Part shown: positions 7,934-29,140 of the stretch, one piece after another
Layout: the number at the start of each line of letters is the position of its first letter
Position numbering within the stretch: position 1 is the first letter of the stretch
Assembly: GCA_021646465.1 (NCBI GenBank)
Contig: SOET01000030.1
Span: 1 to 55,336 of the forward strand
DNA length: 55,336 bases
From: Candidatus Kuenenia hertensis
Lineage (GTDB): Bacteria > Planctomycetota > Brocadiia > Brocadiales > Brocadiaceae
Reading direction: 5' to 3'
The notes under the pieces: generated by a model
Told to the model about the DNA's origin: nothing
Database searches by the model: none
Seen by the model: only the letters and a program-made list of their open reading frames with translations
Made by a program: the position numbers and the translations under genes

Positions 7934-8028
7934 ATCGTAGTTGCAATTTATATTCCAATTTGTATAATGCCGCTATTTTATATCCTACTACATTTACCAT
8001 CTCTTTAGATTTCGGAGGCAAAATTTTA

Positions 8029-10234: not shown

Positions 10235-10274
10235 GTAGTTGTCATTTATATCAGATCTTTTTTAAAGTAAATAT

Positions 10275-10375
10275 CGATAAAGGCAAACCAGTTGTGAGAC
10301 TGGGACGCAAAGCAAAGGATCTTTTTACTTACTAAACGGCAATCAAGGTGTAAAGCAAAAAACCAATTGGGAGAT
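10275..10375 (+). promoter_or_regulatory. GEMM-I (cyclic di-GMP-I type) aptamer, divergent 3' half
   Basis: The 5' half matches the c-di-GMP-I riboswitch core: GGCAAACC (10282-10289), a stem CCAGTT/GACTGG closed by the GNRA loop GTGA, then GGGACGCAAAGC (10302-10313). The usual closing GGTTGCC/GGTTACC strand is not evident; GGTGTAAAGC occupies that place. The second hairpin is also atypical and longer. It sits between a consensus promoter and a strong terminator ahead of the amidase gene, as a riboswitch should. Whether it binds c-di-GMP, a related dinucleotide or nothing is open. Confidence 0.7.
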
Positions 10376-10401
10376 GAAAATAGAAATTTCCTGAAACCGT
10401 T

Positions 10402-10480
10402 AAAGAAAGAAAGCCCTGCTACCGAACAAGAACTGCTTAAAGTTTATTTTGTTCTGTAGCAGGGCTTTCTTTCTTTATTT
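10402..10480 (+). terminator. Strong intrinsic terminator (expression platform) before amidase gene
   Basis: A 21-bp perfect stem (arms 10402-10422 and 10456-10476, core AGCCCTGCTAC / GTAGCAGGGCT) continues into GAACAA/TTGTTC. It is followed by a T-rich tract, TTTCTTTCTTTATTT. It lies 23 bases before the amidase start, so leader transcripts would stop unless it is prevented from folding. Confidence 0.85.
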
Positions 10481-13380: not shown

Positions 13381-13393
13381 ACCAATGAGTTTT

Positions 13394-13840
13394 TTAGTTT
13401 ATTTTTATCCTTCCGGCAATGCTTACGGTAATTGTTTTCTCACCAGCAGGGTTTGTTAAAGTGATGCTTGTGCTTGGTGCGGCATTTCCTCTGGGATGAA
13501 AGATGGGATTTGCTGTTGCAGAGAAAGTGGTATCATAGTATTCGGTTTGTATATCCCTTGTTGTTACCTCTTCGCCGCTGTCAATTGTTCCATCATTATC
13601 ATTGTCATCCAGGATTTGATATTGGTGGTTATCTACAAAAAATATTTTGTATTCGTTGTTTTGGCTGATTGCCTTCATCCGTGCATTTGCGAGATCGCCC
13701 ATTACTTGCCTTGCAGCTCCATTCAACCTGAGCTGTGGTTTCATATTCAGGTAAACAGATACTGAAATTCCTGCAATTATGCTGATGATGATTAAGGTTA
13801 CCATAAGTTCAATTACGGAAAATCCTTTTTGGCGTTGCAT
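13394..13840 (-). CDS. FimT/GspH-like prepilin, second set
   Basis: The protein begins MQRQKGFSVIELMVTLIIIS, a prepilin signal, and continues with PQLRLNGAARQVMGDLANAR, the conserved segment of FimT/GspH pseudopilins. I chose ATG 13840 because the paralogue at 16554-17012 starts at the equivalent MQNQKGF; a TTG at 13870 would add ten residues. The 148-residue product is close to the usual size. The segment YKIFFVDNHQYQILDDNDNDGT recurs nearly unchanged in the paralogue. It is the first gene of the second minor-pseudopilin set, which follows the first after about 330 bases. Confidence 0.87.
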   Translation of the reverse strand: MQRQKGFSVIELMVTLIIISIIAGISVSVYLNMKPQLRLNGAARQVMGDLANARMKAISQNNEYKIFFVDNHQYQILDDNDNDGTIDSGEEVTTRDIQTEYYDTTFSATANPIFHPRGNAAPSTSITLTNPAGEKTITVSIAGRIKIN

Positions 13841-13870
13841 AATAGTTGATGGCCTGTCAAAAGGGGACAA

Positions 13871-14174
13871 TATATTTAATTATATATTTTAATAAGAAAA
13901 GAGCATTTTTAAATGCATATGAGCATCATCGGCAGAAATGATAATTAACGAAGGTTCTAAAATTTAGCAAAAGGGGTATTGAAATGCAATCATTATTTTA
14001 CATGGTGTGTGTGATACGATGTTATGGAGTAACAGAAAAATCAATAAATAGTAAGGTAAATTTTCGGAAATGTGAGACGTTAAAAAATGGGTGAATAAGG
14101 AAAGGCTAAGGATTTATTATGATGTATCGTAGAAAAGGGAATGAAACGTTATACTATTTAAAACTATTACCACC
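13871..14174. other. AT-rich gap between the two pseudopilin sets
   Basis: No credible reading frame is seen. On the minus strand, TTGCAT and TAAATT occur with a 17-base spacing around 13960-13990 and could form a weak promoter for the second set. No terminator hairpin is obvious, so read-through from the first set is also possible. Confidence 0.4.
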
Positions 14175-15551
14175 TTAATTGTTATATTCCATTTTCCAAC
14201 TGATCGGAATTACCGGTCGTGTATATAATGCATTGGCAATTGTACAGCTGCTATATTCTATGACGCTACACCCATTCATATCATTAACGTCATTGCCAAG
14301 AATGGCCCCATGTATATTAACCATATTTGGCCCACCCCCTCCGTTCAGGTCAACTTCTCCTGTACAAAGTATGAGTCCGTTCCAGCTAAATCCACCTTGT
14401 GGTCCCGATGATCCACCACCAAGATTCAGCTCTCCATTTACAAGCAATAGGCCGTATCCAGTTACGTTATTTAGAGTAAGTTGGTTTCCAGAAAAGCCCG
14501 TGGCATCCGCATACCATACCCCATAGTCACTTGCGCTACCCCAATAGGTTATATTACTGGCATTGTTGTTTGTAATTACCTGCGCCCCCTCTTTTAACAT
14601 ATCGATGTACATATCGAAATCGATATCAATTGTACCGTATTCTATTGGAGAGGTTGGCCCAATATGAGGGGTATTACCGTGCTTGTCTACCGTTTCCATA
14701 GTATAAATTGGGTCAAGAGGGGGCTGAGCCCCACATTCATCATTACCATCTACAGTATTTCCATGCCCATTAATATCTACCTGTGTCTTTGAATATAAAG
14801 CCGCCAAAATTGGCGGCCCCGGATTGCTGGCTACTTCTTCTACCGTTATTTTTTTGCTGCCAGAGCTGTATCCATATGAAGTGATAATATCTACAGGCTT
14901 ATGCGTTGTACTGGCTGCAGTGAATTGAACGGGGGTTGCTGGTTGTGAAGAATCTCCGAATCCCCAATAGATAATATTGCCGGGGGATGCAGCCGTATGA
15001 GTGCCAGTATTTCCGTCAGTATCATAATAGTGTGGATTTGAAACAGTATGTCCTTGCAGTTCGGCGTCATATTCTCTTTTGTGTTTTATCTTGACCCAAT
15101 AGGGTATATTTGATGCTGTTTGTATTGTGTTCGTTCCTACGGTAGTATTTGTTGGGTTGTTGGATGTAGGAAAGTAATTTGTATATGAAGCGTTGTAATC
15201 AGGGTCGTCTGATGTTTGCCATGAACTTGTTGCTACAATATAAGCACACCATGATGGATCAGGAGTTGTAATATCATCTCCCGCATAGCTGGTATTAGTA
15301 TTTGGGCCGCTAGGTTGCCCTCTCAGGCGCGACCGTGCTTCCTCAATTCCGGCCTCGGCTGAAAAAAATGCCTGAGTATTGGTTTTATAATTACTGCTGA
15401 TTTTGAGATCTGTGGTTGTTGTGATAGCGGCAACAGAACCTATTATCGCCAAAATAGCTATTAATGCCAGAATGGCGATAAAAATTATACCCTCCTCATT
15501 TTTCATTTGAGAAATTATCACTGTTGTCTTTGGTTTTTGTTGTGTATTCAT
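14175..15551 (-). CDS. PilX-like minor pseudopilin, first set
   Basis: The 458-residue product has the same architecture as the protein at 11264-12604. A PilX-type N terminus (NEEGIIFIAILALIAILAIIG, then KISSNYKTNTQAFFSAEAGIEEARSRL) is followed by a long Asn/Thr/Gly-rich region. The C-terminal part contains GYGLLLVNGELNLGGGSSG and NGLILCTGEVDLNGGG, again a beta-solenoid-like pattern. PilX-type proteins belong to the minor-pilin complex that primes pilus assembly. The C-terminal domain is much larger than in classical PilX, so it may be displayed at the fibre tip. It starts 30 bases after the PilW-like gene. Confidence 0.8.
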   Translation of the reverse strand: MNTQQKPKTTVIISQMKNEEGIIFIAILALIAILAIIGSVAAITTTTDLKISSNYKTNTQAFFSAEAGIEEARSRLRGQPSGPNTNTSYAGDDITTPDPSWCAYIVATSSWQTSDDPDYNASYTNYFPTSNNPTNTTVGTNTIQTASNIPYWVKIKHKREYDAELQGHTVSNPHYYDTDGNTGTHTAASPGNIIYWGFGDSSQPATPVQFTAASTTHKPVDIITSYGYSSGSKKITVEEVASNPGPPILAALYSKTQVDINGHGNTVDGNDECGAQPPLDPIYTMETVDKHGNTPHIGPTSPIEYGTIDIDFDMYIDMLKEGAQVITNNNASNITYWGSASDYGVWYADATGFSGNQLTLNNVTGYGLLLVNGELNLGGGSSGPQGGFSWNGLILCTGEVDLNGGGGPNMVNIHGAILGNDVNDMNGCSVIEYSSCTIANALYTRPVIPISWKMEYNN

Positions 15552-15581
15552 AGGTTTTACCTCGAATAGTATTGATGTATT

Positions 15582-16154
15582 CTAATAGTCAAGATTTTTA
15601 GGAGTTACAAAAGACGTAAGGGTGGCATATTTGTATTCACCGGAAATCGGATCGATATTTTCTGTCCTCCCCGTTATGGTAATTTTTATTTTTCTGATAT
15701 CAGACAATGTAGCAGTTGTTGCCCCGTCACCATCATAATATAAGAACGTGAGATTATCGATGTTTTCCGCAAATGGCAGTGCTCCGTTACCGTCATTTGC
15801 GTTTCTATCAATTTGGCTATTTGCAGAGTCGTAGGCATAGGTAATGGACTCTGAGGCAGTGATCGTGCCATTGCCATCATTATCCATAGAAAAGGTAAAC
15901 GTTCCCGTTTGGGCAACATTTATACCGTTAAAACTTGCTCCTGTTGGATTGTATCCTGCCATCCGTGCTTCTCTGCTGATCGCATCCATAGAGGATCGAA
16001 TGTATTGTTGCATTTCGCTTACCTGCTCCTGAACATTAAATGTTTTTCGTTGTAAGATAAGCAATTTGACCGCAATGCTCAGTATAATAACCATGAGGAC
16101 AAGGCCCACTACTAATTCTATCAAGGTAAAACCCTGTTCATTATTGTTAATCAT
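15582..16154 (-). CDS. PilW-like prepilin, first set
   Basis: This 190-residue protein has the prepilin signal QGFTLIELVVGLVLMVIILS and the PilW/GspJ-like helix LLILQRKTFNVQEQVSEMQ, followed by REARMAGYNPTG. The C-terminal half is a compact beta domain ending near TGRTENIDPISGEYKYATLTS. It is shorter than its paralogue at 12601-13380 because the middle region is reduced. It lies nine bases after the PilV-like gene, within the first minor-pseudopilin set. The products should be processed by a prepilin peptidase, which is not encoded in this window. Confidence 0.88.
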   Translation of the reverse strand: MINNNEQGFTLIELVVGLVLMVIILSIAVKLLILQRKTFNVQEQVSEMQQYIRSSMDAISREARMAGYNPTGASFNGINVAQTGTFTFSMDNDGNGTITASESITYAYDSANSQIDRNANDGNGALPFAENIDNLTFLYYDGDGATTATLSDIRKIKITITGRTENIDPISGEYKYATLTSFVTPKNLDY

Positions 16155-16163
16155 AATAGATTC

Positions 16164-16535
16164 CTATTGCGCTATGATGGTGTTTAATTGAACTTTATGT
16201 ACAGATGTACTTGTCGCCGGGTTCCAGTAAACATTAATTGTGACTGTTTTTGTGTTTGCAACAGGAGTGTCTGTATCAACAGTTGCCTGCAAGTAGTAGT
16301 CAGGATTATTGTATACAGTGTATGTACCCGCAATATCATCATAATCCATATTCCTGAAATCCTCTAATTTATCTTGTGCTAACGTCATAGCGGTAGTTGA
16401 CTTGCTGCTATGGGTATTGCCTTTTATTACAACAATAAGTACGCTCATTACTGCAAATAACCCAATGGCAATAATTGCGATAGAAATCATAATTTCGATT
16501 AAAGAAAATCCTTCGTCTTTATGAGAACTCGTCAT
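16164..16535 (-). CDS. PilV-like prepilin
   Basis: The 123-residue product begins with the prepilin signal DEGFSLIEIMISIAIIAIGLFAVM. The segment TTAMTLAQDKLEDFRNMDYDDI follows; similar A-x-x-KLE-x-(F/L)R motifs are typical of PilV/GspI pseudopilins. The C-terminal strands end VHKVQLNTIIAQ. It is the only member of the first set without a counterpart in the second. The start is the ATG ahead of TSSHKDEGF. Spacing to the neighbours is 9 and 18 bases, consistent with one transcript. Confidence 0.88.
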   Translation of the reverse strand: MTSSHKDEGFSLIEIMISIAIIAIGLFAVMSVLIVVIKGNTHSSKSTTAMTLAQDKLEDFRNMDYDDIAGTYTVYNNPDYYLQATVDTDTPVANTKTVTINVYWNPATSTSVHKVQLNTIIAQ

Positions 16536-16553
16536 ATTTAATCTCTCAAGATA

Positions 16554-17012
16554 TTAATTAATTTTTACACGTCCCGTACGGGCAACGGTTAGAGATTTTT
16601 CTCCGTGTGGATTTTCCAAAGTTATGGTGACTTCCAAAAGCCCGTATAATAATCCATCCGGACTAAATATTGGATATTGTGATGGTACAGGATTAAAGAT
16701 TACGTCCAGATAGTTATTCTGTAAATCCTTTGTTATGATCGTTTCGTTTATATCAGCGGTTCCATTATTATTATCGTCATCTAAAATCTGATATTGGTGA
16801 TCGTTTAAAAAAATTATTTTATATCTGTTGTTTTGACTGACTGCTTGCATTCTTGCCCACATAAGATCTCCCATTACCTGCCTTGCTGCACTATTTATGT
16901 TGATTTGCGGTTTCATATTGTGATAGACGGGAATTGCTGTTCCTGCGACAATTCCCATAATAGACACAACAACAACCAGTTCTATGAGAGAAAATCCTTT
17001 TTGGTTTTGCAT
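16554..17012 (-). CDS. FimT/GspH-like prepilin, first set
   Basis: This 152-residue protein starts MQNQKGFSLIELVVVVSIMG, a clear type IV prepilin signal, and has the FimT/GspH segment QININSAARQVMGDLMWARM. It is a close paralogue of the protein at 13394-13840 over its whole length, including HQYQILDDDNNNGT and the C-terminal GEKSLTVARTGRVKIN. It opens the first minor-pseudopilin set. The 390 bases separating it from the secretin gene are filled with repeats, which may break the transcript. Confidence 0.88.
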   Translation of the reverse strand: MQNQKGFSLIELVVVVSIMGIVAGTAIPVYHNMKPQININSAARQVMGDLMWARMQAVSQNNRYKIIFLNDHQYQILDDDNNNGTADINETIITKDLQNNYLDVIFNPVPSQYPIFSPDGLLYGLLEVTITLENPHGEKSLTVARTGRVKIN

Positions 17013-17405: not shown

Positions 17406-20000
17406 TTACTGTTTTTTTGTGTTTAAAATTGGCGGTATATAGGATTTCTCGTTTGTTAGTCGAAGCAATTTTTCCTGTTCTTCTTTAATAATGATAGTTG
17501 GTTTTAGTAAGATAATAAGATTCGATTTATTACGGGTTTTCTGATCACGGGTGAATAGTTGTTTAATAACCGGTATTTTGGATAATACAGGAACGCCGCT
17601 CGTCGCGTCTTCATTGTTGAGAGAGCCTAATCCCCCAATCATGAGAGTCCCTTTGTCTGGTACGCATACGGTAACCGAAACCTGAGAAACATTTACCCTT
17701 GGAAGCTGAACTGTTTGTTCTGGCGGTATGTAAGTAGTGCCGTCTCCTCCTCCGACATTTACATCTTCTGATAATCCACTAAAAGTAAAAGATTCAATCT
17801 CTTCAATATCAAAGACTGAAGGGGTTACTTCCATGTAAACAAATTTCCTGTCGGCGCTCACGATAGGCCTTACGTCAAACGTGGAACCTTCCGGCACCGT
17901 GCCGATAACAGGTGTGACAATACCATCTTCAACGGTTGTACTTTGTATATAATTTCGGGTTTGCAGAACGGCAATGTTTCCGCGTTGTGTATTAGAAAGC
18001 GTTATTCGTGGTGAAGTAAGGACTTCCGAACCTTTACTTTCCTGCACCGCCTTTAAAAAACCTTTTATTCCGGAAGATCCAAATATGGCAAAACTGAGAT
18101 CCATGCCGCTGCCTAAATCTCCTATAATATCTGCCGCGCCGGTATCCAGGGAAATCTTATCACTAAAAAAACTGTCGATATTGGTTCCGATATCCTCCAA
18201 AAATTCATCCGATACCGTAATAAACCGTGCTTCAATGTTTACTTGCAAATTCTGAGCGGTTCTGAGTGACGCCAGTATATCCTCTATCTGCTTGTGAATG
18301 AATTTTGTATTTACTACAACCAGATCTCCAGGCTGTCCCATACGTGCAGTAATACTTCCCTCTCCCAACCCGCTTGTTCTAACAGTTCTTTGTTCTGTCG
18401 TATCGGAGGTTCCTATGATTCCGACATTCGTTGACCAGGAGGACGGTTCGATTGTGGTAACAATCATTTCTATTAGATCCAAAACCCGTTCAGAAGGGTC
18501 TCTCACTTTAACAGGTTCACCTTTTGTTACACTTAATTGACTGGATGTCGCCGCAGTGATGTCAAATTCAAGAGGTTCCTTATCGTCAAGGTTGATTAAT
18601 ATATCCCTCACATCATAAACCCTCAGTTCCATTTTTTCTTTGTATATGTGCAATATATCTCCCTCAACGAGATACTCGTATCCTTTCGGAAGCAAATAGG
18701 TGAACGCAGTCCTTACGGATACTTCGTCCAGTTTTAATGTGATGGGAACGTTTCCCGCGTTTGCATCAAGCACCATATTTATGTTTGTTTTTTCTCTGAT
18801 AAAGGCAATAACATCCTGTAAAGAAGCATCAATAAATTCAAAAGAAATAATGGTATTTAAGGCGTCTTCGATTTTTTGAGAAAATTGTATCTCTGTAGGA
18901 TTTGGAATCGTTCTTAAGAATTCAGTCCTGGTTTTGTTTTCCTTTACGGCTTCGGATAATTCCGGGAGTTTACGGTTTGCAATATCGTCCCACTGTTTTT
19001 GATCGGGAAAGCGAACAATATCCTGGTATGGAATAGACGCTTCCTTGAGATACTCTTTGTTTCGCAGTTTTTCCTGAGAATGAATTGTTTTAAGATTTTC
19101 ATAATTCCATTTGTGTTTTGTTTCATTCACTTTTTCTTTAAGGTATAACGCTTCTTCGTTATGCGGTTCTATTTCTTCGAGTTTCTGTTCCAAACTCTTT
19201 CTATTTTCTATTGAACTAAAAGTTTGTTGTTTCTCTTCAGCAACCTTATCGCTTGAAAGTGTATCAGATATTTCCAGGGATTCTTCATAGGGCATCTGCA
19301 ATAATTCTTTATTTCTTACAACAGTATCCAAATGTTGAAGGGGAATTGCCTCTTCTTGTTTGCTTAATGATTCCGGTGAGTTGTCTGTTTCGTCAGCAAC
19401 CTTAATAGGCTCATTTTCTGTGTTATTGGGGGCGCTTAGGTCTATTATTTCTATTTCTTCATTCTTTGTGCCTGAAGCATCGTTGTTTTCCTGAACCACC
19501 ACAGACGCTTCTTTTGCTGCCTCCTGTTTGTGTTTTATTTCATGTATTTTTTCTTTAAAATACAAAGCCTTTTTATTGCCGGGTTCTATTGTAAGCGCTT
19601 GTTCCAATATTTCTATGGCATCATCATACCGGTCATTTTCTGCTGCGGTACGTGCATTTTTTATTAATGTTGATATATCATTTGATTTTGCAGGGTCTGA
19701 TGCTACACCTTCTGTTGTGCTTGGTAAGACCGTATTTTCCTCAAGAAGTGAAACCGCTTCATTTTTAAGTAGTTGCGCTTCAGTGTTGGCTGGTTCTAAT
19801 AAAATAGCAAGTGTTAATTCATTAATAGCCTTTTGATAATCAGCCGATTCCAGGTATTTTTTTGCAGATTTAAGATAGTAATTGTCTGTGAGAGATGTGT
19901 TATCTTCAGTAATATCTTTATCCTGAGACCATGTTTGCTGTGTTTCGAAGGACACAAAAAGTAAAAGAACAAAAGTAGTATAAACAAAGACACTTTTCAT
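17406..20000 (-). CDS. PilQ/GspD-like secretin with N-terminal TPRs
   Basis: The 864-residue product has a signal peptide, TPR-like repeats at about 40-160 (YLESADYQKAINELTLAILLEPAN, YDDAIEILEQALTIEPGN) and a long charged linker. A secretin short domain follows (SLQDVIAFIREKTNINMVLD). The secretin module itself has VYDVRDILINL, GDLVVVNTKFIHKQIEDIL and VNIEARFITVSDEFLEDIG, and ends with the typical GVPVLSKIPVIKQLFTRDQ and LIILLKPTII. Secretins form the outer-membrane channel for type IV pili or type II secretion. The length and added TPRs exceed classical PilQ. It follows the PilM-N/O/P-like genes as in pilM-Q operons. No AMIN domain is apparent, so PilQ versus GspD remains open. Confidence 0.9.
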   Translation of the reverse strand: MKSVFVYTTFVLLLFVSFETQQTWSQDKDITEDNTSLTDNYYLKSAKKYLESADYQKAINELTLAILLEPANTEAQLLKNEAVSLLEENTVLPSTTEGVASDPAKSNDISTLIKNARTAAENDRYDDAIEILEQALTIEPGNKKALYFKEKIHEIKHKQEAAKEASVVVQENNDASGTKNEEIEIIDLSAPNNTENEPIKVADETDNSPESLSKQEEAIPLQHLDTVVRNKELLQMPYEESLEISDTLSSDKVAEEKQQTFSSIENRKSLEQKLEEIEPHNEEALYLKEKVNETKHKWNYENLKTIHSQEKLRNKEYLKEASIPYQDIVRFPDQKQWDDIANRKLPELSEAVKENKTRTEFLRTIPNPTEIQFSQKIEDALNTIISFEFIDASLQDVIAFIREKTNINMVLDANAGNVPITLKLDEVSVRTAFTYLLPKGYEYLVEGDILHIYKEKMELRVYDVRDILINLDDKEPLEFDITAATSSQLSVTKGEPVKVRDPSERVLDLIEMIVTTIEPSSWSTNVGIIGTSDTTEQRTVRTSGLGEGSITARMGQPGDLVVVNTKFIHKQIEDILASLRTAQNLQVNIEARFITVSDEFLEDIGTNIDSFFSDKISLDTGAADIIGDLGSGMDLSFAIFGSSGIKGFLKAVQESKGSEVLTSPRITLSNTQRGNIAVLQTRNYIQSTTVEDGIVTPVIGTVPEGSTFDVRPIVSADRKFVYMEVTPSVFDIEEIESFTFSGLSEDVNVGGGDGTTYIPPEQTVQLPRVNVSQVSVTVCVPDKGTLMIGGLGSLNNEDATSGVPVLSKIPVIKQLFTRDQKTRNKSNLIILLKPTIIIKEEQEKLLRLTNEKSYIPPILNTKKQ

Positions 20001-20023: not shown

Positions 20024-20821
20024 TTAATTGCCGGTCATTGTATTTTCAGAAGAAACGATTGACACCGTTTCCGTCCCTAAATTTACCAATTCTCCTGCCC
20101 AAAGGCTGTGTGACTCCCCGTCCCTGTTTTTGAATAAAATTTTGGATGATGTAATCATATGTGGTTCTTCCAGGATGGTTGATCCTATAAATTCTCCTTT
20201 TTCATTTCTTTGAAGAATGCGTTTTTTTATGATAATTGGTTTTTGAGCGGATGGGATAATTTCCATAAGTTTGCATCGTGTATCAAAATTTATCGTTTCT
20301 TTTCCTACTATTTTCTTTGTACCGATAGGCATTCCTTTTGAAACAGCAAAGCTGTTTTCTCTCCAAACATCCTGATATAACTTTCTTACCTGAATCAAGG
20401 CAAGGTCTCCTGTACCGCCTTTATAAATGAATTCCGTATCGCCTTTTTCTGTCACCGTCAGGCGGGATGCATCCCGATATTGTCTCTTTTTTAACAAATC
20501 TTTGATGTTTATATTTTCCCGGCTATCTTTTATTGAGGTATTAAAAACAAACGCCCGCTGCAATACATTTGGCTCAGGAGGTTGCGTAAAGCGCAATTCC
20601 ATTTGTTGCGCGTTTGCCAGTGATATTTCACCTTCAGATGGTTTGCTTGTTAAGAGTTTTCTTTCAATTACATTGGAAGACGAATCCAGCGATGATACAA
20701 TTTTGAGTGTTTTTGAATTCAACAGAATAAATGTGTGAAACATCGTGTAAAAGAAACAACACACCATAACGCCTAAAATAAATTTTCCGCTATGCTTAAT
20801 TAGTAGAGTATTTATATCCAT
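20024..20821 (-). CDS. Membrane-anchored pilus protein in the PilP position
   Basis: From ATG 20821 (MDINTLLIKHSGKF) the product is 265 residues, with one N-terminal membrane helix at about 12-32 and a periplasmic remainder. Its C-terminal region contains a short beta-rich stretch (KLMEIIPSAQKPIIIKKRI, GSTILEEPHMITSSKILF). A TTG at 20860 would add 13 residues and overlap the upstream gene. I recognise no domain by sequence. Its position between the PilO-like gene and the secretin gene, and its single-helix topology, match PilP or GspC proteins, which link the inner-membrane ring to the secretin. That role is inferred from context. Confidence 0.7.
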   Translation of the reverse strand: MDINTLLIKHSGKFILGVMVCCFFYTMFHTFILLNSKTLKIVSSLDSSSNVIERKLLTSKPSEGEISLANAQQMELRFTQPPEPNVLQRAFVFNTSIKDSRENINIKDLLKKRQYRDASRLTVTEKGDTEFIYKGGTGDLALIQVRKLYQDVWRENSFAVSKGMPIGTKKIVGKETINFDTRCKLMEIIPSAQKPIIIKKRILQRNEKGEFIGSTILEEPHMITSSKILFKNRDGESHSLWAGELVNLGTETVSIVSSENTMTGN

Positions 20822-20843
20822 TGGGTAAACGAGTATTCGCTCT

Positions 20844-21749
20844 TTAAGTTTTAAAGTCAATCACATATGCATCAATAAGAATGTTGATTACCGGCATTGC
20901 CATGAAAGCATCTTGATTCTTAAAGCTACTGCCCAAGGTTTTTCCGGAATTCATGTGGGATGTTTTTTTGGTAGTGCTTTCAATGTTTATATTTTCAATC
21001 ACAAAAGGAATGCCGGATTTAAGAAGTTCATTCAGTAAGAATTGCACACGTTCCGCTTCAAGCTCTAATGAAATTGTTAAAGGGATAGTGGAATAAAGAG
21101 ATTCGTAACGGGTATCGATGTTGTTAGGAACAGTTTTGAAAGATATTTTTTCAAGTTTTGTTACCCCCGTATTTTTAAGAAGTATATTAACAAGCGCATC
21201 GAGTATCCAAAATCTTTTTTGTTCAGGGATAATTTCTTCCCACGCAGGGATATTGGCTGCCCAATCATAAAATGGCAAAGCAGATTCGTGAAATTCGATG
21301 TTACTCTTTTCCAATTTTGTTAATAACAAGGAACCTCTTTTTAAATATTCCTGTTTCCATAAAGCTTCGTCCTCAATTTTCACTACACCCTTTTCCGGGA
21401 TGTTATTTGAAAAGGTCATTTCCAGTTGATTATCCATACGATTTATCAGGGAACGACATTTTTCAATTTCTTCATTATATATGTTCGCTTCCTGCTCTTT
21501 GGCGGATATCCATTTATTATTATAAGTAGTTTTTGCCAGGGCATATCGTTCCAGCATGGAAGATAAATTTCCCAGATCGTTGTGAATAGTGGTATGTTGT
21601 TTTAAAAGAGAATAGTTAACTGTAAAAAAAACAATTATCATCACAAGAAAAATGACGCCTGTAATTATCCAAAAACGATATATGGATAAAAAAAAGGGGG
21701 GATTCTGTTTCTTCTCTTCTGGCAGATTATTATTTAAACCGGCATCCAT
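20844..21749 (-). CDS. PilO/GspM-like inner-membrane assembly protein
   Basis: The 301-residue product has a short cytoplasmic N terminus, one membrane helix (FWIITGVIFLVMIIVFFTVNYSLL, about 27-50), a coiled-coil-like region to about 110 and a C-terminal alpha/beta domain. The segment IPLTISLELEAERVQFLLNELLKSGIPFVIENINIES resembles the ferredoxin-like fold of PilO/GspM, in which KLLxxLexxxxfi-type helices are followed by a strand. It sits between the PilM-PilN gene and the PilP-position gene, the standard order. The start lies 23 bases after the upstream stop. Confidence 0.78.
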   Translation of the reverse strand: MDAGLNNNLPEEKKQNPPFFLSIYRFWIITGVIFLVMIIVFFTVNYSLLKQHTTIHNDLGNLSSMLERYALAKTTYNNKWISAKEQEANIYNEEIEKCRSLINRMDNQLEMTFSNNIPEKGVVKIEDEALWKQEYLKRGSLLLTKLEKSNIEFHESALPFYDWAANIPAWEEIIPEQKRFWILDALVNILLKNTGVTKLEKISFKTVPNNIDTRYESLYSTIPLTISLELEAERVQFLLNELLKSGIPFVIENINIESTTKKTSHMNSGKTLGSSFKNQDAFMAMPVINILIDAYVIDFKT

Positions 21750-21772: not shown

Positions 21773-23500
21773 TTAAATACCATTGGAAATATTTTTTTCT
21801 TCCTGTAAATCTATTTTTTCCGATTCGGCAATAATTTCTTCCTGTGATTTTACAATCCACCTTATCTCAAAACTGATGCACTCTGTTGTGTCTGCTTCGG
21901 AATATACCTGGCGGCATGAGTTGGGGACAAGTTCAACATTTTTAAAAGCGGCAACTTTTTGCCCAAAAAGTGTTAACTCTTTAATTGGCTGTAAAACATT
22001 TTCTTCAATAAAACGTATCCCTGGTTCTCTGCTTTCTCCTTTTATGCCTATAAACAAACATTTTTTTGCAGTGTTGTCGTCCTTTTGGTTTTTTTTCGCT
22101 TTGCCTTCATTGATATTTAATGTATCAGGGTCTATCCAGGAAGACTGTAAAGAGTTTATGGATACATTGCCGGGAATACTTTCCAGCAGTTTTTCTATTG
22201 CTTCAATCCAAAAAAATCTTGAAGAGTCTATAGAAGAAATAAGTTCCAGTTCCGATTTCTTTTCATTAAAGGTTTTTTCCGTTTTTTTATATGTGCTTTC
22301 AAGATTTTTTACATTTTGCAATATTGCCTGATGATAATTGTGTGCGTTATTAAGTTTGGAAATATGAAAACGCAGCCCAAAATATTGGGCAACGATTAAC
22401 AGTGCAAAACATCCAAGACCTGCAATTGCATAAGGTTTTATTTTTGATACTTGTGCAGCTCGTACTAGCTCTTTTGGCAATAAATTTACCGCTGTTTTTC
22501 CCAGCCCCACCCCTTGAAGAGCAAGCCCCAATGCAACGCTTAACGAAACACAATTGCCGGAGAAAAAGGCGTGATCAATGTTGCCGGAAATTCTTATATT
22601 GTTTAGTGTATTTAGTACTTCTACTTTATAGGCAAAATTGTCCTTAATGGTGTTTTGCATCAATGGATCATTGAATTTATTCCCGATGAGTAAAAGTTTC
22701 TCGAAATGAACCGTGTCTGTATCTTTACTTAAAGATTTATAATATTCCATAGACCGTTGTATTTCTTTTACGAAATCTGCATTTACCTCACGCAATGGGA
22801 TGGTTCTCAGCCAAAAGTGGGAGTGATCTATAATAATCAGGTCGGTGTTTTCTTCCTCTATATGAACAATGATGGTTGGCCCTTCCACCTGCTGATCGAA
22901 AAGAACTAAATTATATATTGCTAAAGGTGAGGTCAGTAAGGCGGTTAGGTTAAATTCCCGGAAAGAGATATTGTTTATAATAGAGTGAAGTGTTTCCCGT
23001 TTTGATGCAAAAAATCCAATTTCAATACCTTCTTCACTTGGCACCCGTCCTGATAACTGATGATAATCCCACACAACGTCTTTAAGTTCGAACGGTATCT
23101 GTTGTTGCGCTTCATAGTTAACGAGATTTCTTAATTGCCTTTTGTTAACAGGTGGAATAGTGCTGAATCTTGACATAGCTAATTGTCCGGGGACGGACGC
23201 CACAATATCAATCTTTTTATTGAAAGCATGTTTTGACAGAAAAGTTTGAATTGTATTGCGGACGTGGTGAGATTCCAGCAGTTTTGTACTTGATAGCGGA
23301 GCGGGGTATTCAATAATATCAACGTCGTCAACTATTACATCGTTATTTTTTCTGGTAATTTTTACTGCTTTTAATGCATTATCGCCAATATCCAAACCCC
23401 ATACTGTTTTTATATTGCGTTGTTGAAAGACAGACGGCCTTCTTTGTGAAACAGGTTTGCGGGTACCGGGATTTTTTCGTAGTTTTGGAAAGTTTATCAT
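21773..23500 (-). CDS. PilM-PilN fusion, type IV pilus inner-membrane platform
   Basis: I take ATG 23500 (MINFPKLRKN), which follows CAGGGA; the longer frame to 23545 lacks a binding site. The 575-residue protein has a PilM-type actin-like domain (VWGLDIGDNALKAVKI, IVASVPGQLAMSRF, QLRNLVNYEAQQQIPF, VVWDYHQLSG) over about 350 residues. A membrane helix (AIAGLGCFALLIVAQYFGL) and a coiled-coil plus C-terminal domain follow, corresponding to PilN. In most pilus systems these are two proteins that bind each other, so here they are joined in one chain. No separate PilN gene is seen before the PilO-like gene. Confidence 0.87.
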   Translation of the reverse strand: MINFPKLRKNPGTRKPVSQRRPSVFQQRNIKTVWGLDIGDNALKAVKITRKNNDVIVDDVDIIEYPAPLSSTKLLESHHVRNTIQTFLSKHAFNKKIDIVASVPGQLAMSRFSTIPPVNKRQLRNLVNYEAQQQIPFELKDVVWDYHQLSGRVPSEEGIEIGFFASKRETLHSIINNISFREFNLTALLTSPLAIYNLVLFDQQVEGPTIIVHIEEENTDLIIIDHSHFWLRTIPLREVNADFVKEIQRSMEYYKSLSKDTDTVHFEKLLLIGNKFNDPLMQNTIKDNFAYKVEVLNTLNNIRISGNIDHAFFSGNCVSLSVALGLALQGVGLGKTAVNLLPKELVRAAQVSKIKPYAIAGLGCFALLIVAQYFGLRFHISKLNNAHNYHQAILQNVKNLESTYKKTEKTFNEKKSELELISSIDSSRFFWIEAIEKLLESIPGNVSINSLQSSWIDPDTLNINEGKAKKNQKDDNTAKKCLFIGIKGESREPGIRFIEENVLQPIKELTLFGQKVAAFKNVELVPNSCRQVYSEADTTECISFEIRWIVKSQEEIIAESEKIDLQEEKNISNGI

Positions 23501-23545
23501 ATTTATTTTTTTCCCTGCGGGATCACATTTGAAACGTAATGTCAT

Positions 23546-23740
23546 TAAGTTGAGCTACCAGCCGCAAAAGCCACCCTTAGCAAGGGGGATTCAGGGGGTT
23601 GTTTCTATAAAATAATTCTTACTTTAATGACATTGGTTTGCAACGCAATCCCATATTTTATATTTTTCAACGCATTATTACCGATAAGACGTTTTATGTA
23701 CTATCCAAATCGGGGTTCAGGTTACAAACCTGAACCCACC
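23546..23740. repeat. Repeat cluster between pilM-N and miaA
   Basis: A CCCTTAGCAAGGGGGATTCA-type repeat (about 23575-23600) is followed by a hairpin at 23714-23738 (GGGTTCAG...CTGAACCC). The hairpin belongs to the same family as the ends of the ~130-bp dispersed element and overlaps the 3' end of miaA. Confidence 0.65.
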
Positions 23741-24661
23741 AGCAACAAAATAATCCAGGATATTTTCTATTACATCCTTATCATCAAATGAGTCGGGGGC
23801 AATCCAATGAATATCAGTAAAACTTCTAAACCATGTCATTTGCCTTTTTGCAAAACGGCGTGTACCTTGTTTGATTGCACTGATTGCCTCCGAAAGTGAA
23901 TGATTTCCATCAAGGTAATCAATCACTTCTTTATATCCCAGCGCCTGAGAGGCTTGCTTGCTTAACCCCAATGGATTATTAATTAAAGTTTGTACTTCAT
24001 CAACAAGTCCTCGCAAAAACATACTATCCACACGCGATTCTATTCGTTTATACAATTCATTCCGATCATGAGCAATTGCAACCACAATGCAGTTGTACTT
24101 TGGATTTTTACTTCCAAACTGGGTTTGATAAGAAGAAATAGTTGTTCCCGTCTGTTTAAAAACTTCAAGCGCCCGGATTATTCTTCTTTGATCATGAGAA
24201 TGTAATCTGTGGGCAGTTTTCGGATCAATTGCTTCAAGCATATTGTATAAATAATCCGTTCCTTGTTCTTTTGCGATTGTTTTCAATTGGTTTCTATATT
24301 CCCAGTTTGCAGGAGGACCGTTAAATAACCCTTCCATAATGGCTTTCAGATAAAGTGCTGTACCTCCCACTACAATGAAGGGTTTTTCCTGTGCATAAAG
24401 ACTATTTGTGACTTCTTCAAAATCTTTTATATAATTTCCTACGCTGTATTCTTCCCAGGGATCTCTGATGTCTATCAGGTAGTGAGGAATTTTTTTTCTT
24501 ATTTCGGCAGAGGGTTTTTCCGTCCCGATATCCATGCCGCGATAAATCAACATAGAGTCTGCGGAAACTATTACAGCCCCGGTTTGCTCCGCTATCTTTA
24601 TGGCAATTTCCGATTTTCCACTTGCCGTAGGGCCGGTAAGGATACAAATTGTATGAGACAT
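23717..24661 (-). CDS. miaA: tRNA dimethylallyltransferase MiaA
   Basis: The ATG at 24661 gives MSHTICILTGPTASGKSE with the P-loop at the N terminus; a longer frame to 24724 would bury it. Family motifs are clear: DSMLIYRGMDIGTEKP, PHYLIDIRDPWEEYSV, VGGTALYLKAIMEGLF, HDQRRIIRALEV and ALGYKEVIDYL. The enzyme adds a dimethylallyl group to A37 of tRNAs that read UNN codons. The length of 314 residues is normal. The last residues (GFRFVT) and the stop codon come from a dispersed hairpin repeat, so the native C terminus has probably been replaced. The gene lies in line with the pilus genes, a housekeeping function within that locus. Confidence 0.95.
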   Translation of the reverse strand: MSHTICILTGPTASGKSEIAIKIAEQTGAVIVSADSMLIYRGMDIGTEKPSAEIRKKIPHYLIDIRDPWEEYSVGNYIKDFEEVTNSLYAQEKPFIVVGGTALYLKAIMEGLFNGPPANWEYRNQLKTIAKEQGTDYLYNMLEAIDPKTAHRLHSHDQRRIIRALEVFKQTGTTISSYQTQFGSKNPKYNCIVVAIAHDRNELYKRIESRVDSMFLRGLVDEVQTLINNPLGLSKQASQALGYKEVIDYLDGNHSLSEAISAIKQGTRRFAKRQMTWFRSFTDIHWIAPDSFDDKDVIENILDYFVAGGFRFVT

Positions 24662-24773
24662 AAAACACTCTCTATTATCGAAAATCAAGGATTTTTTCAA
24701 TTTTTTAAGATTTATCGTAACCATATTTTACAAACTGATTTATAATAAGCAAGCAACTATAGCAAGAAATAAT

Positions 24774-25328
24774 CTAAAATTTTGTACCTTTCGTAATTTT
24801 TGTATTGTTTGACACTTTATTCTCCCTGTTTTCGTTATTATTTTTTCTCATTTTACTCAAAAAACTGTTTGATGTAATTGATGCTATATTTTGCATCCCA
24901 TTTCCGATTGCAGTCGCTACTTTTGAGGTGTAAATCACTTCGCATGCCGGTTTATTGCATAAACTGAGGATACCGAAGATGATTGCGCCGCAGAAGATCG
25001 TTCCTTTCACTAATCCAAGTACCGCACCGAATAAATTATACCAACTGCCGATTTTCAGGTTGTCGATCATATTTTTGGGAAAATCAGCAATAATCGTGGT
25101 AATAAGTGCTACAAGAGCAAATATGATGAAATAGCTCAATATATTATTCAATGAGACAGAAAAAACATTTTTGAAAATGTTACTTATGATCGCGTTGTAA
25201 AAAAGCGCCGCACAAAAAGAAATAAACAAACTGCTGATTCTGAGAAACTGGCATATAGGCCCGTCAATAAAGCCAAAAATTATTGAAATACATAGGACTA
25301 CAAATATTGTTATATCTATCCAATTCAT
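24774..25328 (-). CDS. cvpA: CvpA family membrane protein
   Basis: Starting at ATG 25328 with AAAGGAT upstream, the 184-residue product (MNWIDITIFVVLCISIIFGF) has four membrane segments. The pattern matches CvpA/colicin V production proteins: an N-terminal NWIDI-type helix, then a conserved LFGAVLGLVKGTIFCGAIIFGIL stretch. The C-terminal 40 residues are polar and Asn/Lys-rich. CvpA proteins are linked to envelope homeostasis, but their molecular activity is not settled. The gene begins 14 bases after the TPR gene. Confidence 0.8.
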   Translation of the reverse strand: MNWIDITIFVVLCISIIFGFIDGPICQFLRISSLFISFCAALFYNAIISNIFKNVFSVSLNNILSYFIIFALVALITTIIADFPKNMIDNLKIGSWYNLFGAVLGLVKGTIFCGAIIFGILSLCNKPACEVIYTSKVATAIGNGMQNIASITSNSFLSKMRKNNNENRENKVSNNTKITKGTKF

Positions 25329-25342
25329 TTTTATGTATCCTT

Positions 25343-26254
25343 TTATTGTGCATCCAAAGCGTTTAAAATTTCCCGACACGTTTTATTATCTGAGTTCATT
25401 GACAGAATAAAATGAATTCTGCGACGAATCTCCCCTTTCCTCGATGCTTCAGGATTTAAACAATATTGAAAATAGTGTGATTGTATAAGACTCATATGTA
25501 TATCTTCCTGGAACGGGTTTAATGCAATGGATTGTTTTAAGACTTCCTCAGCGGCAGAATAATTTGAAATTGTCAAATACATTTCTCCCAGTTTATTGAG
25601 AACCGCCACTTCGTATGGTTTCAATTCAGAAGCCCGTTTAAGAAACCGGATCGCCTCCTGGCAATTCCCCAACTGTGCATAAAGATTTCCCAAATTAAAT
25701 AAGGCTTTTATATGATTGGGGTCTCTTTTTAAAACATTTTCATATTCCTTTATGGCTTCATCAAACATGTCATGTGTATCATAGAGAACCGCCAGGCAGA
25801 AATAGGGAAAAATGGCATTCGGATCATGAGCAATCGTTTTTTTATATTGTTCTACTGCTCCATTATAATTACCTTCCAATTCGAGTATTTTAGCAATATT
25901 AATCATTGCCTCAATATTTTCAGGATTTATCTTTAAGGCTTTTTCGTACATTTGTTTTGCACTGCCTAACCTGGCCATTTTCTCATAAACATAGCCAAGA
26001 TTATTAAACGCTTCTTCGTTATCGGGCTCCAAAGCGGTCGCTTTCTGAAAACACTTTAGCGCCTCATCATAATCGTTCCTGGCAAGATAAATAAACCCCA
26101 GGTTCACATAGGCATCGGTGAAACTGTTATCATTCCTGATACTTTGTTTGTAAGCCTCTATTGCCTGTTCCGAATTGGGAAGAATGTGATCATATTTTTT
26201 CCCTTCTGCGAACCAATTTCGTGCTAATGTTTTTTTGTTCATTGCTATGAGCAT
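25343..26254 (-). CDS. TPR-repeat protein
   Basis: The 303-residue protein is almost entirely tetratricopeptide repeats: at least seven units of 34 residues such as AYVNLGFIYLARNDYDEALKC, AFNNLGYVYEKMARLGSAKQ and ALFNLGNLYAQLGNCQEAIR. There is no signal peptide or membrane segment, so it is probably cytoplasmic. An internal ATG four codons downstream is an alternative start. It lies between the ExeA-like ATPase gene and cvpA. TPR proteins in pilus loci (for example PilF) often act as assembly pilotins, but those are lipoproteins; the lack of a lipobox argues against that role here. Confidence 0.87.
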   Translation of the reverse strand: MLIAMNKKTLARNWFAEGKKYDHILPNSEQAIEAYKQSIRNDNSFTDAYVNLGFIYLARNDYDEALKCFQKATALEPDNEEAFNNLGYVYEKMARLGSAKQMYEKALKINPENIEAMINIAKILELEGNYNGAVEQYKKTIAHDPNAIFPYFCLAVLYDTHDMFDEAIKEYENVLKRDPNHIKALFNLGNLYAQLGNCQEAIRFLKRASELKPYEVAVLNKLGEMYLTISNYSAAEEVLKQSIALNPFQEDIHMSLIQSHYFQYCLNPEASRKGEIRRRIHFILSMNSDNKTCREILNALDAQ

Positions 26255-26306: not shown

Positions 26307-27656
26307 TTATCCTATCTTGCTTAATACCAGATCTCTGATTTCACTCCAGATAGATACCGGATCTGCATAAGGAGATTTTGTCAACTGCGGATTTTCTTTA
26401 AGAGTTTTGGCCGCCATTGCGCCTGCTAATTTAAGGCGGTGTTCCTGTGTAGTTGATTGAGCCTGCTGGATTAAGTCAGAAGGGAGAATTATTCTCAGCT
26501 TGCACTCCCCGATTTCTGTTTCTGCTATATCATCTTGCACTAAAGAATCGTTGTTTATAACAGATGCAGGCATCGCGCATGAACTTGACTGCGTTATGAA
26601 TGGCTCAAAGTACTCATTTTTATTTAATGACAAGGAGTCTTCTTCCGTAGAATTTTCTTCAGGCAAATCAATTGACGGTTCTTTCATACTCCACTTTTCG
26701 ACCAATTGTTCATCGTGTTCTTCTTTCTGATTTACGGATACTTTCTCGTGTACTATTTCCAGTTCCTCTACAGAAGAAGGAATCATTTCCTCCTTTGGTC
26801 TTTTTCGCGGCATCCTCTTTTGGACGGCAGGGCCGGTGATTTTACGGAAACGTTCTCCTACCTGATGTATCACCTCTCCATTAATTTCACAGAATCCGTT
26901 TGTTTCACCTGCTTTTAAAGCTAATTTGCAAATTTTATTAATAAGACGGGGTATGCCATGTTCCGAATGTTCCCATATAATATTAAACGCATCATCAGTA
27001 AAAATTTTTCTTTTTCCCCCCGCAAGCTTTATCCGTGTTTCAACATAAGACTTTACCATATCGATCGATGGAATTTTTTCAATTTTGTTATACGTCCCGA
27101 TACGTTGAAAAAGATTTGCAAATTTCGGTTGTTCAAGCCTTCGTGCTAGCTCCATTTGTCCCGCGAGCACCATGGTGAATAAGTTCCGTTTATCGTCCTG
27201 CATATTGGTAAGCAACCGTAAATTTTCCAGGTTTGCAGAAGAAATGGCATTTGCTTCATCAATAAAAACGAGAACCTTTTTCCCCTCGTCAATAGTTTTA
27301 AACAATAATTTATTAAATATTTCTATTAAATCGACTTTCTTCTTTTCTTCACATTGCTTTCCGGTTATCTGTCCGATTATTTCCCTCATAAGCTGCACAA
27401 ATGTAGTGCTTGGATTCGTAATAAGAGCAATTTTATATTTATCCTGAGCTATCGAATCTATAATCATTCTAAGAGACATGGTTTTACCAAGTCCCACATC
27501 TCCGACGATAACGGCGATACATTCTCCGCCTTCCTCTATTGCAAATAGAGTTTCTGCAATTGCATTTTCCATGGAAGTATGACATTCTGCATACATTGAA
27601 GGGTCCGGAACATTATCAAAGGGCGGTTTTTCAAGATTCCAGTAATTGTAGTACAT
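26307..27656 (-). CDS. ExeA/GspA-like AAA+ ATPase
   Basis: ATG 27656 follows GGAGG. The 449-residue protein starts MYYNYWNLEKPPFDNVPDP, the hallmark N terminus of ExeA-type ATPases (YxxxWgLxxxPFxxtPDP). It has Walker A GDVGLGKT near 52-59, Walker B VLVFIDEANA near 124-133, and a sensor region ending HGIPRLINKICKLAL. ExeA with ExeB helps insert or assemble the secretin through peptidoglycan; related ATPases also occur in exopolysaccharide loci. Unlike classical ExeA there is no membrane helix or peptidoglycan-binding domain. After residue 270 the chain is an acidic, low-complexity linker with a short conserved-looking tail (LIQQAQSTTQEHRLKLAGAM). It lies in the same direction as the secretin and PilM-O genes. 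Confidence 0.88.
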   Translation of the reverse strand: MYYNYWNLEKPPFDNVPDPSMYAECHTSMENAIAETLFAIEEGGECIAVIVGDVGLGKTMSLRMIIDSIAQDKYKIALITNPSTTFVQLMREIIGQITGKQCEEKKKVDLIEIFNKLLFKTIDEGKKVLVFIDEANAISSANLENLRLLTNMQDDKRNLFTMVLAGQMELARRLEQPKFANLFQRIGTYNKIEKIPSIDMVKSYVETRIKLAGGKRKIFTDDAFNIIWEHSEHGIPRLINKICKLALKAGETNGFCEINGEVIHQVGERFRKITGPAVQKRMPRKRPKEEMIPSSVEELEIVHEKVSVNQKEEHDEQLVEKWSMKEPSIDLPEENSTEEDSLSLNKNEYFEPFITQSSSCAMPASVINNDSLVQDDIAETEIGECKLRIILPSDLIQQAQSTTQEHRLKLAGAMAAKTLKENPQLTKSPYADPVSIWSEIRDLVLSKIG

Positions 27657-27670
27657 TTTTTTACCTCCGT

Positions 27671-28171
27671 TTAGAATGTTGGCTTGTTTTTTTCTGCTTC
27701 ACTTTCTACATTTTTAGCGAGATAATCCAGCACATCATCCATTGAAACACGTCTGAGTTTCCCCAACTTGTAGCTTTTTATTTTTTGTTTCAATATGAGT
27801 TTTTTTAGAAAACTTTTGCTTATTTGCAGCATTTGACATACTTGTCTGGGCTTAAGCATTTTTAATGAATCTGGTTTTTCGAGATAAAATTTAAAGATTA
27901 TTTGCCCTGTACCCTGCTGGCGCAGGTTTAACAAAGAATCATTAGAGGCTGTATTCATCAAGGAATTAACATACTCATTCGATTTCACTACGTTACATTG
28001 TTCCTGAGTCAATCGAAAAGTAATTACGTTATTGTCGTCGTTCAATGATTCCTGTATTGTGCTATCCCCTTCACTATGAATGTCTGTATTACCTGACAAT
28101 ACTGATAGCGCATTAAAATTATTTTCCAGAAAACCTTGTTTCCTCCTTTTGACAATACATAATTTTTCCAT
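27671..28171 (-). CDS. Excisionase/MerR-like helix-turn-helix protein
   Basis: The 166-residue product begins 14 bases upstream of the ExeA-like gene and has AGGTGA before its ATG. The C-terminal third (about 108-160) is an excisionase-type winged helix: MLKPRQVCQMLQISKSFLKKLI, then QKIKSYKLGKLRRVSMDDVLDYL. This matches the helix_turn_helix_17 family. The N-terminal two thirds are polar and match nothing I recognise. It is the first gene after the tandem riboswitch leader, so it may be a regulator made only when the leader is read through. Direct DNA targets are unknown. Confidence 0.8.
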   Translation of the reverse strand: MEKLCIVKRRKQGFLENNFNALSVLSGNTDIHSEGDSTIQESLNDDNNVITFRLTQEQCNVVKSNEYVNSLMNTASNDSLLNLRQQGTGQIIFKFYLEKPDSLKMLKPRQVCQMLQISKSFLKKLILKQKIKSYKLGKLRRVSMDDVLDYLAKNVESEAEKNKPTF

Positions 28172-28300: not shown

Positions 28301-28350
28301 AAAAAAAAAGACCCAAGGCAGATATTTGATATCTGACGCTTGGGTCTTCG
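28301..28350 (-). terminator. Terminator of second riboswitch (leader-proximal to pilus locus)
   Basis: On the minus strand, AAGACCCAAGCGTCAGATAT pairs with ATATCTGCCTTGGGTCTT, followed by nine T residues. The 5' arm CGAAGACCCA (28341-28350) is exactly complementary to TGGGTCTTCG inside the upstream aptamer (28508-28517). That allows a mutually exclusive antiterminator. Confidence 0.85.
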
Positions 28351-28484
28351 TTACACAATGCGGAAGTAAATAACGTATTATTTAACGTTCACATAGTCTG
28401 GCGTTGCAGGACTAACTAATTACAGCCGTTACATAGACAAAAGATGTTCTGAACGATAAATAAACTTTTTTATCGGCTGAATTT

Positions 28485-28560
28485 GGTAACCTGGCATTCT
28501 TCTTTATCGAAGACCCATGGCTTTGCGTCCCAGCCTCACGGCTGGTTTGCCTTTTTCAAA
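28485..28560 (-). promoter_or_regulatory. Cyclic di-GMP-I (GEMM-I) riboswitch aptamer, second of tandem pair
   Basis: Read on the minus strand: GGCAAACC, a hairpin CAGCC-GTGA-GGCTG with a GNRA loop, GGGACGCAAAGC, a second hairpin TCTTC...GAAGA, and the closing GGTTACC (28485-28491). All conserved blocks of the c-di-GMP-I class are present in order. A terminator lies about 135 bases downstream and the pilus locus begins about 310 bases downstream. Class and ligand follow from family knowledge; binding is not shown. Confidence 0.9.
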
Positions 28561-28784
28561 TTGCTGTTTTATTTTTATAGTTTACTGGATTTTGTTTCCT
28601 CCTTTTTTTCTAATAAAAACTATTTTCATCCAACATTCTATGTCGGTGCAATTTTGATTACACTGAAAAAATGATCGGATGAAAACGGTACGGATTTAAG
28701 GAAAATATAAAAATTTTTTTCCCTCTCAAATACCAACTATGCATTAATTATTTGAACGTCATCGTTTATTATAATTTTTTGCTC

Positions 28785-28832
28785 AAAAAAAAAGACCCAA
28801 GTACAGATACATTATCTGCCGTGGGTCTTTTT
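28785..28832 (-). terminator. Terminator of first riboswitch
   Basis: On the minus strand, AAGACCCAC...AGATA pairs with TATCT...TTGGGTCTT, followed by nine T residues. The 5' arm AAGACCCA is complementary to TGGGTCTT in the first aptamer. The layout repeats that of the second terminator with different loop and stem details. Confidence 0.8.
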
Positions 28833-28929
28833 AGTTTCAATAAAGAAGGTTTTCAATCTCAACACATAAGCGAAACACGTGATTGCAACGTTTTTTTCCA
28901 AAGCTTACGTGTAAAAAAGAAACATAATT

Positions 28930-29050
28930 AAATGGTCCTTGGCCGCCTTGACTCCTCGACTCCGCCCGGAATGACATCATGCTAAGCGGATCGAAATAAC
29001 GTCATGCTGAGCGGAGTCGAAGTATTGACATTTCTAAACGTTTAATTATG
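28930..29050. repeat. GTCATGCTGAGCGGAGTCGAAG-type repeat in the leader
   Basis: The segment holds CTCGACTCCGCCCGGAATGAC and, inverted, GTCATGCTGAGCGGAGTCGA, plus a degenerate middle copy. This is a repeat type widespread in bacterial genomes. It lies between the first aptamer and its terminator. It ends in ATTTCTAAACGTTTAATTA, related to the tails near 4460, 30690 and 52494. Confidence 0.6.
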
Positions 29051-29059
29051 TTTCCTTCT

Positions 29060-29140
29060 AAAACTGGCAACCTGGCATTCTTCTTTATCGAAGACCCATG
29101 GCTTTGCGTCCCAACCTCACGATTGGTTTGCCTTTTTCAA
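29060..29140 (-). promoter_or_regulatory. Cyclic di-GMP-I (GEMM-I) riboswitch aptamer, first of tandem pair
   Basis: The minus strand reads GGCAAACC, CAATC-GTGA-GGTTG, GGGACGCAAAGC, CATGGGTCTTCG, GAAGAATGCC and GGTTGCC (29066-29072). It is nearly identical to the downstream aptamer, with compensating changes in the first stem, which supports a conserved structure. GGTTGCC restores a perfect pairing with GGCAA. Confidence 0.9.

Follow-up and report, generated by a model that had tools for sequence, protein, structure and literature searches.

The minus strand of the window, as we call the whole 55,336-nucleotide stretch of DNA analysed here, carries two c-di-GMP-I aptamers one behind the other in front of a type IV pilus locus, and this arrangement raises the question of what the pair would do to the genes behind it. 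Our answer, which we hold with good but not full confidence, is that two complete transcription-terminating c-di-GMP-I OFF riboswitches stand in series under one promoter upstream of aptamer 1, such that high c-di-GMP would turn the pilus genes off. The aptamers, the terminators, the complementarity between them, their exclusive genome-wide coupling and the synteny in relatives carry this reading. The host genome encodes hydrazine synthase alpha (PF18582), which is found in 19 of 33 genomes of the host family and in 0 of 14 control genomes, and one same-genus relative is a Planctomycetota MAG (VGXV01), which by agreement in contig number and coordinates we equate with the second species (G002) below; we therefore take the host to be an anammox (anaerobic ammonium-oxidising) planctomycete. 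Anammox bacteria live in granules, are responsible for much of nitrogen removal and are difficult to obtain as pure cultures. All 33 genomes searched of the host family (f1) contain c-di-GMP-I, with 1 to 56 copies each (56 in G020), and none was found in the nine genomes of the sister family f2; the host genome itself has 18 copies alongside 25 GGDEF matches. A family with up to 56 such elements per genome, together with a link from signal to pilus that can be read from sequence, offers a concrete and testable circuit.

Read on the minus strand, the leader consists of a promoter-like site, aptamer 1, a spacer, terminator 1, a spacer, aptamer 2, a spacer and terminator 2, followed by the first gene at 28171, with two complete units of aptamer and platform, both of one ligand class, in a single leader. 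Both aptamers are full-length in cmscan: aptamer 1 (29141-29062) scores 66.3 bits (E 1.6e-13) against RF03167 and 70.6 bits against RF01051, and aptamer 2 (28560-28481) scores 70.1 bits (E 1.3e-14) and 74.0 bits, where the gathering scores are 59 bits for RF03167 and 35 bits for RF01051. The top-scoring Rfam family for both is RF03167 (c-di-GMP-I-GGC), and the cut-off of RF01051 (c-di-GMP-I) is passed too. Every GEMM-I block is found in each aptamer, namely GGCAAACC, a GNRA loop on the first hairpin (GTGA in both), GGGACGCAAAGC and the closing GGTTGCC/GGTTACC, and the covariance scan thus bears out the sequence-only reading, which had proposed two GEMM-I aptamers with all blocks on this strand and had placed the start and end of the element correctly. 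The canonical c-di-GMP-I pocket, which we take to be G20, A47 and C92 in Vc2 numbering, is represented in both aptamers by G, A and C at the ligand-contacting positions of the cmscan alignments.

Behind each aptamer stands a terminator ending in a T9 tail, as had been claimed: terminator 1 at 28832-28785 (5' arm AAAAAGACCCA, dG about -20.6 kcal/mol) and terminator 2 at 28349-28301 (dG about -24 kcal/mol). The Shine-Dalgarno-like AAAGGAGG lies downstream of each, at 28605-28598 and at 28296-28289, the latter not at ribosome-binding distance from the first gene; the reading frame behind it has only 2-3 codons, and the same motif stands 3' of the terminators in some other OFF units. In unit 2 the perfect 10-base complement described earlier proved exact on re-checking: the aptamer strand TGGGTCTTCG (28517-28508) matches CGAAGACCCA (28350-28341), which is both the 5' arm of terminator 2 and the antiterminator partner, and only 0.7% of dinucleotide shuffles of the unit-2 spacer equal it. 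For unit 1 an 8-base match had been noted, which is correct but understates the pairing, since beside this core the aptamer's 13-nt TTCGATAAAGAAG (29092-29080) pairs with CTTCTTTATTGAA (28848-28836) in 13 pairs including one G-U; the aptamer-1 strand open to the antiterminator, TGGGTCTTCG plus TTCGATAAAGAAG, thus spans 29098-29080, and the energy of extension and core as one duplex is reached by 0.55% of core-keeping shuffles. In its two sister copies, unit 1 relies instead on CATTCTT paired with AAGAATG and on AACC/GGTT (shuffles as good in 4.9% and 16%), and the extended pairing thus appears to be kept with different letters, each case being weak by itself. The unit-1 spacer also holds an insertion of about 110 bp (29040-28930) that is absent from the other two leader copies and contains many CGACTCCGCTCAGCATGAC-type inverted repeats. 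In predicted folds of the transcript up to the terminator 5' arm, whose energies leave out ligand and tertiary contacts, all 10 antiterminator pairs form in the minimum free energy (MFE) fold of unit 2 and 7 of 8 in unit 1, at 7.1 and about 19 kcal/mol better, respectively, than the aptamer folded apart.

This coupling extends across the genome. A search of its 4.17 Mb for GACCCA-N12-40-TGGGTYTTTTT gives 11 distinct places, each within a few hundred bases behind a c-di-GMP-I aptamer, whereas the reversed pattern gives none; aptamer-complementing terminators are therefore found only behind c-di-GMP-I aptamers. Judging from the sequences, common descent of the units adds to this exclusive coupling, yet the stem is constant while spacers and hairpin loops differ widely. 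Across 30 OFF-type units from four genomes, picked by their TGGGTC and CCC[AG] content and many of them related copies, at least 8 contiguous aptamer-terminator pairs are present in 23, and in 26 the MFE fold of the RNA up to the terminator 3' arm includes the antiterminator; the terminators of C5a, C5b, C49 and unit 1 of the second species (G002) were read by hand where the automatic finder chose the wrong hairpin. Covariation beyond the shared core, assessed with own against swapped partners, was not significant over these 30 units (run length p 0.28, duplex energy p 0.35), with positions 9-10 alone giving p 0.04; the evidence for the antiterminator is therefore complementarity and exclusivity rather than covariation. 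Each of the two terminators brings a separate 5' arm, which lies outside the aptamer and is complementary to it. Sequence and folding together thus give an aptamer-independent terminator and a mutually exclusive antiterminator that uses an aptamer strand, and the predicted logic is OFF because the terminator can coexist with a folded aptamer, the antiterminator alone depending on an opened one. The OFF switch put forward by the sequence-only reading is accordingly supported, as a prediction, by terminator layout, folding and genome-wide coupling.

A single candidate promoter would serve both units. The site TTGATT-17-TGATAAAAG, with an extended -10 (29191-29163), is nearly identical before aptamer 1 in the window, in G002 and in a paralogous leader on contig C5 of the host genome. 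Of 25 OFF units that are first or single, 16 have TTGA-N18-20-TA in the 75 nt before them, where shuffles predict 2.9, and of six second units none has; the difference (Fisher p 0.007) follows one widening of the pattern, the narrower extended -10 test having given 8/25 against 0/6. Promoter-like sites at first or single units and none at second units support one promoter for both, and with it the claim that the aptamers act in series. In the mechanism we propose, this promoter just upstream of aptamer 1 would start the leader, and at low c-di-GMP the nascent terminator 5' arm would invade its own aptamer at the second hairpin, pairing TGGGTCTTCG with CGAAGACCCA (for unit 1 this takes the form of an 8-pair helix and a 12-13-pair helix). 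With the aptamer invaded, the terminator would be blocked and transcription would go on, read-through without ligand resting on the pairing TGGGTCTT/AAGACCCA; with c-di-GMP bound, the aptamer would retain its strand, the terminator would form and transcription would end. The polymerase would have to clear both decision points, and the response should therefore be steeper and tighter than that of a single unit. A NOR-like gate had also been suggested, and this we do not uphold: such a gate requires two distinct ligand inputs, and the identical pocket residues of the two aptamers mean a single one. The best reading of a tandem with one ligand is a steeper, pseudo-cooperative OFF switch, the class to which a review of tandem riboswitches assigns same-ligand pairs (PMC9481103).

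The genes behind the leader, all on the same strand, begin with an HTH_17/excisionase-type DNA-binding protein of 166 aa (27671-28171; PF12728, TIGR01764), an AAA_22 (ExeA/MshM-like) ATPase of 449 aa (26307-27656; PF13401), a TPR protein (25343-26254), a CvpA-family protein (24774-25379; PF02674) and MiaA, a tRNA dimethylallyltransferase (23717-24724; PF01715). The pilus genes follow: a PilM-like protein (21773-23545; PF11104, with TIGR01175 and NF045709 below cut-off), two genes of PilN/PilO position without a family match (20024-21749), a secretin of MshL/PilQ/GspD type (17406-20000; PF00263) and minor pilins and pseudopilins (GspH, PilV-, PilW- and PilX-like; 11264-17012). PilM, the secretin and the prepilin-like genes mark a type IV pilus target, as the earlier identification of a pilus/secretin locus had it, and the motor ATPases of the pilus lie on other contigs. 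That the leader gates this locus holds in so far as the pilus genes are downstream on the same strand, but the HTH, ATPase, TPR, CvpA and MiaA genes come first; because of these, and because PilM starts about 4.6 kb downstream past a 172-bp gap, we infer the read-through to the pilus genes. Gaps of 172 bp before pilM, 394 bp after the secretin gene and a further 305 bp could hold other promoters; a promoter pattern scan of the three gave nothing above chance. The output would be an HTH-AAA-TPR-CvpA-MiaA operon, presumably with the PilM, secretin and pilin genes behind it, and on these sequence grounds high c-di-GMP would most likely shut off the pilus cluster.

Relatives preserve the arrangement to differing degrees. 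The related-genome search that had been proposed shows the tandem leader, with the same succession of genes behind it, preserved in G002 (its HTH protein and the window's are 86% identical) and the leader split in a third species (G001). There the order is a ComEC fragment, unit 1, a transposase-like ORF (418 aa), unit 2, TPR, CvpA-like, MiaA and PilM, the HTH and AAA genes being absent and gene names assigned by reading-frame resemblance to the window. With the units 2.2 kb apart and a transposase-like gene between them, series control in G001 is probably broken. In another genus, G010 has ComEC, then a terminator of this type standing alone, one unit and HTH-AAA-TPR-MiaA-PilM, which looks like what the loss of a first aptamer would leave. 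The host's contig C5 paralogue (7310-9306; L037) repeats the whole tandem leader and also has a third, degenerate aptamer (40 bits), for which no terminator was found, right before a predicted exported protein of 1003 aa. Outside the family, one aptamer precedes the HTH orthologue of a 'Deltaproteobacteria' MAG (L024), with no clear terminator, and no aptamer above cut-off was found in the DNA obtained around the remaining HTH relatives (L020-L023 and L025-L027, with little upstream DNA in L020).

The window holds a third c-di-GMP-I element, separate from the tandem, at 10272-10426 on the plus strand (RF01051, 56.2 bits), or 10272-10475 with its platform. Its platform is of ON type, the aptamer 3' strand GCCCTGCTACCGAA doubling as the terminator 5' arm. 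It has a TTGACA-16-TATAAT promoter-like site, precedes a gene for an N-acetylmuramoyl-L-alanine amidase, which is convergent with the pilus locus, and has similar copies in G002 (C28:32060) and G001 (C1:3231488). If both polarities are true, high c-di-GMP would turn the pilus off and the amidase on. A genome whose near-identical aptamers carry ON platforms in some units and OFF platforms in others also offers a natural set for studying the evolution of polarity. Elsewhere in the host genome, on contig C86 (L039), a single OFF-type unit with a TTGACA-16-TATAGT promoter-like site stands before two prepilin-like genes, and pilin-type genes therefore recur among the predicted c-di-GMP-OFF targets.

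Three other explanations of the leader deserve weight, and they concern its ligand, its polarity and its continuity. Switches for 3',3'-cGAMP (GEMM-Ib) have the first G of GGCAAACC replaced by A (G20A), and here that position is G in both aptamers, each of which reads AAAAAGGCAAACC; the c-di-GMP-I-GGC variant passes on score, but both aptamers have A after GACGC, in agreement with the general c-di-GMP-I consensus, where the RF03167 model has a conserved G, presumably the middle one of 'GGC'. Because the pocket letters fit neither variant, c-di-GMP is the inferred ligand of both aptamers, and we consider it distinctly unlikely that they bind another dinucleotide (3',3'-cGAMP, or the unknown ligand of the GGC variant), even with GGC as the best Rfam family and a cGAMP-binding GEMM-I switch on Geobacter pilM (PMC9262584) in its favour. 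An ON polarity, in which ligand favours read-through, is found in the Geobacter pilM switch and in the triple tandem of B. thuringiensis (PMC4759541), and ON platforms exist in the host genome itself, including the element at 10272; the placement of both terminator 5' arms outside the aptamers they complement, with antitermination requiring an unfolded aptamer, makes it highly improbable for this leader.

The remaining alternative is that the units do not act in series, with unit 2 or the HTH gene using a promoter of its own and unit 1 belonging to a separate transcript or being a relic of duplication. Weak promoter-like matches between the units (28840-28811, 28729-28702) and after terminator 2 (28287-28259) would allow this, in a scan whose yield is near chance (7 found against 4.6 +/- 2.1 expected), and the separated units of G001 and the single unit of G010 behind its lone terminator point the same way. 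The absence of the conserved promoter from the second units argues against it, as does the persistence of aptamer, terminator and extended antiterminator of unit 1 in three copies, and we regard it as rather unlikely. Two OFF switches under one promoter, both reading c-di-GMP, thus remain the explanation we prefer.

The pilM locus of this family bears c-di-GMP-I elements at a second position as well. Three further genera, represented by six genomes (G007, G014, G018; G012, G005; G003), have c-di-GMP-I directly before PilM, and 3' of MiaA wherever MiaA was found. The terminator 5' arm of these units (e.g. AGAGCCTTACTACCGAAA) mimics the aptamer 3' strand and pairs with the aptamer 5' strand in predicted folds, and from such models the platforms look OFF by design and built differently from the tandem. 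The units concerned (L095, L096, L098, L105, L106, L107) suggest how an ON switch could become an OFF switch, through duplication of the aptamer 3' strand. No pilM-adjacent c-di-GMP-I was found in genera g5, g7, g10 and g11 in the stretches scanned, some of them short or cut by a contig end. That a single locus has such elements at two positions (the tandem before the HTH-AAA-TPR block, the single unit between MiaA and PilM) and with two types of platform suggests that they may have been recruited repeatedly. We give even weight, for and against, to the wider proposal that the anammox family recruited c-di-GMP-I OFF switches to the pilM locus at least twice and that c-di-GMP represses pilus transcription as cells aggregate; if true, this would be the opposite of Geobacter pilM. 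According to work cited in PMC8851195, anammox aggregation is linked with c-di-GMP, and surface colonisation by Ca. Jettenia with type IV pili.

The combination of leader and locus had been thought undescribed. As a concept it is published, in that 347 doublets and 12 triplets of c-di-GMP-I tandems are on record (PMC9481103) and a GEMM-I switch sits on Geobacter pilM, but the claim may hold for anammox bacteria: no paper joining anammox and c-di-GMP riboswitches was found in the open-licence literature searched, a confinement that leaves the evidence for novelty weak. Elements of this type are familiar; what seems undescribed in that literature is the group of hosts, how densely the switches occur there and their repeated use at the pilM locus. 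Closest in layout is Bc3-5 of B. thuringiensis, a triple tandem that gave tighter, more digital control in reporters (PMC4759541) and that likewise strings together complete switches of the same class, every one having a terminator of its own, with a steeper response expected; it is an ON system before adhesin-like genes in a Firmicute, whereas the leader described here is OFF-type and precedes a pilus locus in an anammox planctomycete. Two OFF switches in series also make up the SAM-I/AdoCbl tandem NOR gate (PMC9481103), which takes two different ligands where the present pair takes one and forms no two-input gate. The Geobacter metallireducens pilM switch (PMC9262584) likewise has a transcription-terminating GEMM-I aptamer upstream of a type IV pilus operon with pilM, but is a single, cGAMP-binding ON unit in contrast to the OFF-type tandem of the window with its predicted response to c-di-GMP. 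OFF logic itself is established for Cd1 of Clostridioides difficile (PMC9262584), where the terminator's own 5' arm likewise pairs with the aptamer as an antiterminator without ligand; Cd1 is a single unit whose antiterminator takes the aptamer 3' strand and the pocket C, whereas the window's units would give up the second hairpin's 5' strand and, in unit 1, also the loop and the 3' side.
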